Shown one piece after another: positions 11,831 through 13,729 of a stretch of DNA of 64,000 bases. The first letter of the stretch is position 1. Every line of letters starts with the position of its first letter. The stretch is from Microcoleus vaginatus PCC 9802 (GTDB taxonomy: Bacteria; Cyanobacteriota; Cyanobacteriia; Cyanobacteriales; Microcoleaceae). The position numbers and the translations under genes were made by a program. The stretch lies in the NCBI GenBank assembly GCA_022701275.1, contig CP031740.1, positions 5,345,001 to 5,409,000 of the forward strand. The letters are read 5' to 3'. The notes under the pieces were generated by a model that saw only the letters and a list, made by a program, of their open reading frames with translations, did not search any database and was not told the origin of the DNA.

Positions 11831-12736
11831 CTAAGCGTCGTCTTGCGGCCCAAAAACCATTTGTAAAATCATCGTCGGTTCGCCCCGCTTGTGATAGCGA
11901 TCGGCCCAATTGCGAATAATCTCATCTAATTCCTCAAGGGCTTGGTCGAGGCGTTCCGGCGGAATATCCAAAGTCTCCATAATTCGCATCACCTTCGGTT
12001 GTTTGTCCGCCCAATCCTTCATCAGCCGGAAATATCTAGCCGTATCCTCCACCATAGTAAATGTTCGCTCTTCCTGCTCTGCCGGAGAGTAAGTAGCGCG
12101 GGTGAGGGCATAAAACGGCATTCCCCAAGGAGAATCAATGCGAGTTACTGTCCCAGAATAGATCAAGCGCCGCTTAATGTGTTCTGCTAGAGCTTCGCTC
12201 AAAGGCATTCGCCTTTCTGGAGACATATCTTCTTGCGATCGCCTGTGCAGAAACTCGATCAACTCCATAAACTGAAAAGAATTGATCAGTTGAGCGTCAG
12301 GCGGATTAGGAGGAATCTTGCTTTCTAGATATTTTTTTTCATCTACAGTCAAATTGTTTCCCGGAATGCGAGGGCGTCCCGGCATCCAACCATACTGTTC
12401 CAACCAGACATAAGGAAACTGAATCAAATATCTAGGTTCCTGGGAACCCAACATTTTCAGCAATTTTCCCTGAGTCAGAGCTTCCCGGACTTCCTCAACA
12501 ATCACCTTCACCCGTTTAGGCTCAATGTGATGCAAGTGCCCAGTCATCCGCAGGTTGTTGTCCTGCTCCATATAAGTCATATAAATGGCACACTTAGCCG
12601 CCGTTGCGGCCGCGTCTAGAAACGCCCCGTGCCTGTGCCCACTGGTTCTCATGGCGCTAAACGCCAGATATAGCATGATCTGATCCATTGCACTAGGGCT
12701 GAGGCTTTTGACCAGATCCAAAGAGTCATTTTTCAT
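11831..12736 (-). CDS. hetR: Heterocyst/pattern master regulator HetR
   Basis: 301 residues from the chosen start at 12736. An upstream in-frame start would add 25 residues, but [20 protein letters not shown] lines up with the known N-terminus of Anabaena HetR, and the resulting length fits (299 there). Near-invariant stretches are present: [20 protein letters not shown] (DNA-binding part), [19 protein letters not shown] and the C-terminal hood [20 protein letters not shown] that binds RGSGR peptides. HetR is a dimeric DNA-binding regulator. In heterocyst formers it drives differentiation; in non-heterocystous filaments its role is less clear. The PatX-like gene upstream on the same strand supports a working HetR-peptide pair. 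Confidence 0.97.
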
Positions 12737-13062
12737 CACTATCCCCGAAATAGCCAAATTTGGAGGCATTTTGTTGTCCTCCATTAAATTATTGCGAGAG
12801 CGCCGAATCAAGCATAGCCGACTGTCGCCGGAAAGCTTGCCAGCTACCCTAATATTCAGGTTAGTTAATTTCCCTGAGGTAACAGGGGCATGGGCTTAAA
12901 GGCTATCCACACCGCATAAGTGGTTCTTATTGGTGGCCAATTTAAGTAGATTGCTGCACCCTCTGCGCTGACAGTTTACCTATATATAAGTTAGTTATCG
13001 CAAGTTAATTATAGTGCAGCGGTTGAAAATTAAACCCTACTTTGGGCGCGGAGAAGGTAAAT

Positions 13063-13116
13063 AACTGTTGCGCTCCCAGGAATCTGAGGAACTGTTGCGC
13101 TCCCAGGAATCTGAGG
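13063..13116. repeat. 27-bp perfect tandem duplication
   Basis: AACTGTTGCGCTCCCAGGAA plus TCTGAGG occurs twice head to tail, 13063-13089 and 13090-13116, in the hetR upstream region. Confidence 0.85.
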
Positions 13117-13272
13117 CGACTCCGAGGTGATAATTTTTGACCAGTCATGGATGCCGAAACCCGGTTCGATCGACTACAATAAGGGGTGGAAGGCGACGGA
13201 TATCGGTTGAAAAACCCGGATGAGCCCATGCCTGTGGGTAATTCCTGTTTAATTGGAGAGTTTTCAATACAA

Positions 13273-13314
13273 AACCGCCACATACTAGAATCTATCTCTA
13301 GGTAGATGGCGGTT
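13273..13314. terminator. Stem-loop between patX and hetR
   Basis: 8-bp perfect stem AACCGCCA/TGGCGGTT with partially pairing inner arms (TACTAGA / TCTAGGTA). It lies 190 bases beyond the patX stop, so it could end the patX transcript or be part of a small RNA. Confidence 0.4.
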
Positions 13315-13360
13315 GCAGGTTTATATGCTATCATCGTTTACACAAAAAAGAATCTCCTAA

Positions 13361-13390
13361 GAACTGTCCACAAAAGAACTGTCCACAAAA
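13361..13390. repeat. 15-bp perfect tandem duplication
   Basis: GAACTGTCCACAAAA occurs twice in a row, between the patX stop and the stem-loop. Confidence 0.8.
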
Positions 13391-13501
13391 AGTGCAGTTG
13401 TCGCTTAACGTGAAAAACTAGAATCCCAGAAAATCCGATCGAGCGATCAAATGAACGGCCCGAAGCAACTCAGTTGTGGTCATCACTTGCGTCCAGTGCC
13501 A

Positions 13502-13729
13502 TTAGAAATCTTGTAGCGGATGAGTGTAAACATTAGGCTCAGTAAGATTCCTGCGTCCGCTGCCCCTCTCAGGACCGCGCTCGCGCTTTTGTTGAGTTTG
13601 GGCTGACAACATATATTGGGCGGTGGCAGTTTCGACCATGGGGAGTGAAGATTCTAAAGCTTGAGCGGCGCTGGCACTCAAGGTAATGCCCAACAGGCTC
13701 AGTAAAGCAATTGCAGTGTAGGTTTGCAT
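13502..13729 (-). CDS. patX: PatX-like RGSGR-containing exported peptide precursor
   Basis: 75 residues. A hydrophobic signal segment (residues about 5-24, ending SASAAQA) is followed by a short linker and then RGPERGSGRRN, with the RGSGR pentapeptide at residues 55-59. RGSGR is the HetR-inhibiting motif of PatS, HetN and PatX. PatX proteins are described as signal-peptide-bearing RGSGR proteins associated with hetR in filamentous cyanobacteria. The gene lies about 0.77 kb upstream of hetR on the same strand. The motif is seen directly; processing, export and inhibition of HetR are inferred from the family. Confidence 0.88.
   Translation of the reverse strand: MQTYTAIALLSLLGITLSASAAQALESSLPMVETATAQYMLSAQTQQKRERGPERGSGRRNLTEPNVYTHPLQDF

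Follow-up and report, generated by a model that had tools for sequence, protein, structure and literature searches.

Comparison of patX copies across Microcoleus shows, at the level of the encoded proteins, that the small PatX precursor linked to hetR is bipartite: a conserved block, YMLSAQTQQ, is preserved in the protein independently of the pentapeptide RGSGR. Where the linked gene is present as a tandem pair, the two copies have degenerated in complementary ways, which points to a second protein-level function of PatX beside RGSGR, and this split of block and motif is what one would expect after duplication of a gene with two functions, one of them retained in either copy. Reading all lines of evidence jointly, we consider it probable that the locus encodes a HetR–PatX activator/inhibitor pair in which a bipartite PatX also performs a second, HetR-independent task. 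The observation made in a first-pass annotation of this DNA is confirmed and its interpretation partly supported; it had overlooked both an unlinked PatX ending in RGGGR and the tandem copies in relatives, with RGSGR lost from the hetR-proximal one.

A patX–hetR pair in Microcoleus vaginatus PCC 9802

The window, a 64,000-nt stretch of a genome assembled as a single contig (6.70 Mb, 99.97% complete), contains the one hetR of that genome (11831–12736, minus strand), assigned by NCBIfam, Pfam and alignment with PDB chains. The protein scores 579 bits against NCBIfam NF009718 (cut-off 489), carries Pfam domains PF03574 and PF18460 (the C-terminal hood domain) and aligns over ~300 residues with the HetR chains of the PDB (4hri/4yrv, E 1.3e-159; 3qod, E 2.4e-155). 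The frame is open further 5′ to a TTG at 12811 (ORF 12811–11831, minus strand); the ATG at 12736 (MKNDSLDL), from which the solved chains can be aligned, is taken as the likely start. Arg223, given as required for PatS and HetL binding in an excerpt of PMC7476756, is kept, with the Arg of QEERTF aligning with QERTY of the solved chains (numbering by count on the alignment). The best HetR matches among named relatives are Microcoleus sp. FACHB-DQ6 (99%) and Microcoleus vaginatus HSN003 (98%), and hetR was found in 60 of the 61 genomes of the family, the sole miss (G058) being an 81% complete genome. Two tandem hetR genes (2786–3709 and 6708–7631, ~3 kb between them) occur at L060 (G060; L136, Trichodesmium MAG_R02) and may be real or an artefact of MAG assembly.

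Upstream on the same strand lies patX (13502–13729, minus strand), the single linked copy in the window genome, recognized by profile and comparison. Its 75-residue product matches NCBIfam NF047413 at E 1.6e-10 (40.8–41.6 bits, cut-off 30) and consists of a hydrophobic, signal-peptide-like N-terminus (residues 1–24, 13658–13729, minus strand; best 12-residue hydropathy 2.48, with an AxA-like site judged by eye), the YMLSAQTQQ block as a second conserved module (residues 39–47, 13589–13615, minus strand), the RGSGR motif (residues 55–59, 13553–13567, minus strand) and a 16-residue tail. The first-pass annotation had described hetR with an upstream 75-residue, PatX-like gene bearing the HetR-inhibitor motif RGSGR about 0.77 kb away; both genes exceed their curated profile cut-offs, the motif is the known inhibitor motif, and 765 nt separate the patX stop from the hetR start. 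It had also seen no sign of heterocyst genes, which holds for nifH, the one such gene searched: no match above cut-off was found in the whole window genome (best TIGR01287 score 220 bits against a cut-off of 394), and the strain would accordingly not be expected to form nitrogen-fixing heterocysts.

All 28 close genomes with a readable locus contain a homologous hetR-linked-type PatX frame, and this, together with its low dN/dS (below), argues that the window frame is not a chance one; the linkage that the earlier annotation had proposed to look for in relatives is found, as are homologues of the 75-residue frame. Across the wider family, PatX-profile matches reach E ≤ 0.01 in 50 of 61 genomes and exceed the cut-off in 43. 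The gene order—FAD-dependent oxidoreductase (13826–15640, minus strand, directly 5′ of patX), patX, hetR, convergent DUF92, glyoxalase-like—is the same in every fetched stretch that extends far enough and in which tblastn located the genes. Several further features were observed nearby: two inverted repeats (arms of 23 and 27 nt; 11682–11826) in the gap where hetR and DUF92 converge, possibly a two-way terminator; a 109-aa ORF (13005–13334, minus strand) with no family match; an OrfB_IS605/TnpB-like transposase gene (15940–17190, plus strand) near and upstream of the oxidoreductase; and a 33-aa frame with ERGSGR (18030–18131, plus strand), embedded out of frame in a 576-aa ORF and probably a chance occurrence, the DNA of which is matched by 9 of the 29 genomes of the genus (window genome counted).

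Block and motif are partitioned between tandem patX copies

The 28 genomes read comprise 27 of the 29 of the window's genus and UBA9251, placed by HetR (94%) and tree; G036 and G037 were left out of the counts, their contigs ending before patX. Linked-type copies, classed as single, proximal or distal by position only, number one in 12 genomes and two in 16 (the distal-type copy of G022 is on another contig, its linkage not shown directly). All 12 single copies carry both YMLSAQTQ and RG[ST]GR, the latter as RGSGR. Among two-copy genomes, YMLSAQTQ is retained in 16/16 hetR-proximal copies and RG[ST]GR in 4/16, while the full distal copies carry RG[ST]GR, in each case as RGSGR, in 15/15, YMLSAQTQ in 1/15 and the shorter SAQT in 11/15; the distal copy of G012, a 25-aa remnant keeping RGSGR, was held out of the change counts. 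The four genomes with RG[ST]GR in both copies (G016, G017, G022 and G034) count against the partition. In G023, G024 and G038 the gene homologous by position is without the motif, so that the presence of RGSGR in close relatives, on which the first-pass annotation had staked its reading, fails for the gene at that position and holds for the second tandem copy.

Reconstruction of amino-acid changes on a hetR plus DUF92 tree gave block-to-motif ratios (nine block columns, five motif columns) of 1:24 in proximal, 16:0 in distal and 0:0 in single copies. The corresponding Fisher value for proximal versus distal copies (1.6e-10) is optimistic, because adjacent codons do not change independently of each other and some forks of the tree are unresolved. 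Estimates of dN/dS (12 single, 16 proximal and 14 distal copies) were 0.05, 0.07 and 0.31, respectively, for the block (residues 37–47) and 0.22, 0.64 and 0.20 for the motif region (residues 48–60). Furthermore, the proximal block has accumulated nine nucleotide changes but a single amino-acid change (four and none in the single-copy block), indicating that selection acts on the protein. Seven of the 15 distal copies have a weaker signal-like segment, with a best hydropathy over 12 residues of 1.49–1.94, compared with 2.39–2.48 in singles and 2.12–2.48 in proximals, and in five full distal copies, as in the G012 remnant, RGSGR forms the exact C-terminal end.

At the level of genomes, the motif has been lost in 12/16 two-copy and 0/12 single-copy genomes (Fisher p 6.6e-5), a value that we do not take as proof since the genomes are related. 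The genome-level tree requires five copy-state and four motif-state changes; four independent, well-supported pairs could be drawn from it, with three in agreement, none opposed and one tied (sign test p 0.25, three informative pairs placing 0.05 out of reach). In the tree of copies, the distal copies of 14 two-copy genomes form one clade (100/94) and that of G032 stands apart, grouping with G019 and with G032's own proximal copy, so that as few as two duplications may lie behind the 16 two-copy genomes. This topology suggests a duplication of its own in G032 and, for the other genomes, either transfer or an old duplication followed by repeated losses. In G000, G013 and G033 the upstream flank is of distal type and the frame and downstream flank are of proximal type, with the switch at the start codon; such single copies could be fresh fusions of a distal and a proximal gene, but an unduplicated ancestor would in part look alike.

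Could the locus instead be an ordinary PatX–HetR pair, in which the block merely aids export or release of RGSGR and the motif-less proximal copies are decaying duplicates? The pair is of a known kind, the signal-like segment and block sit where a processing site could be, and most distal copies retain part of the block (the SAQT core noted above). Yet a release helper would be expected to persist in the RGSGR-carrying copy and be lost from the other, the reverse of what is seen, and a block dN/dS of 0.07, with all 16 proximal frames open, is not what decay of a duplicate would produce. We therefore regard this explanation as unlikely and favour a bipartite PatX.

Sequence elements around patX

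The distance rule for DIF1 elements is 69 nt. On the 5′ side of the window patX, a DIF1-like element, TCCTGA (13782–13787, minus strand), lies 58 nt from the start codon, with one mismatch to the DIF1 motif TCCGGA (excerpt of PMC7377430). By reading of the aligned rows, TCC[TC]GA precedes the start in all 42 Microcoleus linked-type copies (TCCTGA in 37, TCCCGA in five); a stricter scripted DIF1 pattern matched 36 of 52 rows, unlinked copies counted in. The HetR-binding palindrome GGGN5CCC is absent from 12737–13830.

On the 3′ side, ~190 nt past the stop, a hairpin (13273–13314, minus strand) is supported by folding, covariation and conservation. It folds better than 200/200 shuffles and is present after 42 of 44 linked-type copies (Kamptonema counted), 92–201 nt past the stop within the region searched. 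Over 40 of 43 distinct copies (three left out; single-sequence fold used; signal mainly in the upper stem), 92.9% of cells are paired, versus at most 53.1% for slid versions of the structure, and both-sided changes number 25 against a shuffled mean of 10.3. RNAalifold alone, applied to the 40 hairpins, recovered the lower stem only, with no compensatory pair, and a simple terminator scan made no call at the hairpin, its counts being no higher than in shuffles. Assignment to a known RNA family was rejected (the sole Rfam match listed for 11500–14200 is rteR, E 0.33, below the gathering score), as was a mobile repeat, the genome containing one full-length match and a 19-base partial one. The hairpin occurs once per patX copy, 136–201 nt past the stop within the genus; because each tandem copy has its own, we read it as part of the 3′ end of patX mRNA, where it may mark the transcript end or a processing site.

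The spacer further contains two tandem duplications, one of 27 nt (13063–13116) that appears private to the strain, since L002, L004 and L006 show 27 gap bases there when aligned, and one of 15 nt (13359–13388) that varies among relatives: G038 shares it, G024 has a diverged form, and G023, G013 and G033 lack it. The first-pass annotation had seen in these duplications and in the hairpin a possible part of the control region. All three exist and the hairpin is conserved, but the duplications are not conserved and so are unlikely control elements, and the hairpin travels with each patX copy, which speaks against a special leader element of hetR.

These observations bear on a model in which patX and hetR form one operon, with the intervening hairpin and repeats acting as a leader that controls hetR. 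The two genes share strand and conserved order, part of the ~300 nt before hetR is conserved, and co-transcription of patX and hetR has been suggested for Leptolyngbya BL0902 (excerpt of PMC11298460). The hairpin nonetheless keeps its place relative to patX, once per copy, while the distance from hetR to its nearest patX ranges from 467 to 2180 nt across the genus, and the two repeats look private or variable; given that the hairpin goes with patX and the repeats are not conserved, leader control within an operon is not favoured, and we hold it to be improbable. Still further from the bipartite PatX that we prefer, and very hard to sustain, is a signal at the DNA or RNA level (a protein-binding site or antisense RNA) holding the block in place of a peptide, as the very strict conservation over a short stretch might suggest, since nucleotide outnumber amino-acid changes 9:1 in proximal and 4:0 in single copies, at dN/dS 0.05–0.07.

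Unlinked PatX copies and the wider family

The window genome encodes a second PatX above the cut-off, unlinked to hetR (contig positions 2567763–2567966) and ending in RGGGR, which at 58.7 bits (NF047413) scores higher than the window PatX. Of these two PatX genes, found as profile matches as distinct from every small RGSGR frame, only that of the window carries RG[ST]GR. Five more profile matches in this genome have E 0.27 or worse, a level also seen in 12/14 control genomes. Within the genus, the unlinked copy was read in 27 of 29 genomes (not found in G012 and G029), with RGSGR in 20, RGTGR in two and an altered motif in five: RGGGR in G000, RGEGR in G023, G033 and G038, and PGDGR in G024. 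All five altered-motif genomes are among the seven with the most similar HetR (window genome counted), and each has a hetR-linked copy with RGSGR. Weak additional profile matches (20–23 bits) were seen beside the unlinked patX at G016:C55:19491–19670 and G022:C56:46209–46388.

Beyond the genus, the SA[QR]T core of the block recurs at Kamptonema, Arthrospira, Okeania and Planktothrix loci, with SAQL in Lyngbya; a Leptolyngbya-like PatX (L158) is without the YMLSAQTQ block. Within a group of ten genomes containing Planktothrix (g10), the SART-type copy reads RGGGR in eight genomes, with RGEGR and RGSGR in one each, and an MR-type copy carries HRGSGR in 9/9 genomes where it was found; set beside the Microcoleus readings, the same altered pentapeptides thus occur in different PatX classes of two groups. 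Other arrangements of the motif were also encountered. PatX-like precursors 5′ of hetR at L150 (2207–2614, plus strand) and L157 (213–566, plus strand) have a hydrophobic N-terminus followed by four and three spaced RGSGR repeats, respectively, and resemble multi-copy peptide precursors, and L034 (3577–3826, plus strand; the same as L118, Lyngbya aestuarii BL J) has two RGSGR motifs in one PatX frame, one internal and one C-terminal. No small RG[ST]GR frame (ATG start, <130 aa) was found in the fetched hetR flanks of L155, L159, L161, L163, L166 and L167; these six loci are mostly of Nostocales, in contrast to many Oscillatoriales loci.

Discussion

Drawing these features together, we propose that patX would be transcribed from its own DIF1-like promoter and that its message may end, or be processed, near the conserved hairpin. 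The 75-aa precursor would be exported by way of its hydrophobic N-terminus and then cut, by a route like that in Nostoc; the released (E)RGSGR peptide would bind the hood domain of HetR and block DNA binding, so that HetR in neighbouring cells would be restrained. The YMLSAQTQQ block, in turn, may serve a second, HetR-independent task of the precursor outside the cytoplasm, as suggested by its retention in copies lacking RGSGR.

PatX is already on record together with HetR in filaments without heterocysts (Elhai and Khudyakov 2018, cited by an excerpt of PMC7761841), and the window locus shares with that pair (NF047413, NF009718) the hydrophobic N-terminus, RGSGR, a candidate DIF1-like element and a same-strand hetR nearby. 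It differs in its kept YMLSAQTQQ block, its 16-residue tail and the additional unlinked RGGGR PatX, and in the splitting of block and motif between the tandem copies of its relatives. In Nostoc PCC 7120, PatX is an exported precursor, cut by the peptidase PatP, of an RG(S/T)GR hexapeptide: HRGTGR binds HetR with a KD of 88 nM and abolishes DNA binding (PMC12756182), a behaviour that we predict for the window counterpart. The Nostoc protein differs in length (56 aa), in its HRGTGR motif and in its role, heterocyst patterning. PatS, which the same paper describes as a 17-aa protein with PatS5/PatS6 that is thought to be processed in the cytoplasm, has the RGSGR inhibitor motif in common with the window PatX, and the five full distal Microcoleus copies and the G012 remnant end at RGSGR as it does; unlike PatS, which is short, ends in RGSGR and has no export signal, the window PatX has 75 residues, a signal-like segment and a 16-residue tail.

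In Leptolyngbya BL0902, a filament without heterocysts and without nif, patX likewise lies directly 5′ of hetR. Its deletion there is reported to have effects that are largely HetR-independent (excerpt of PMC11298460), which fits loosely with a second task of PatX, although the Leptolyngbya-like PatX in our comparison (L158) is without the block. For filaments without heterocysts, excerpts of PMC7761841 and PMC12756182 conjecture a role of the pair in necridia and filament breakage; the earlier suggestion that the window pair serves some other patterning function than heterocysts is in line with this conjecture.

Going beyond a bipartite PatX as such, we see it as possible rather than probable that in Microcoleus and its kin the PatX linked to hetR is a precursor of two signals. 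One part would then yield the RGSGR inhibitor of HetR, the part containing the block would be a second secreted signal with a target of its own, the altered RGGGR and RGEGR copies would have shifted specificity, and the two parts would have been separated into different genes beside hetR after duplication. The pair and its linkage were already known, whereas a two-part, partitioned PatX appears to be new as far as our literature search reaches, the defining 2018 PatX paper lying outside it; that search returned nothing on RGGGR with HetR, nor on PatX–HetR in Microcoleus.

What PatX and HetR do in filaments that form no heterocysts is so far a matter of conjecture, and the single deletion study covered here describes PatX effects that are seemingly HetR-independent (excerpt of PMC11298460). 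As three of the closest relatives have lost the motif from the gene at this position, RGSGR beside hetR is an unreliable marker. The natural separation of an RGSGR gene from a block gene in sister strains would allow clean genetic tests of the two parts of PatX, one at a time.
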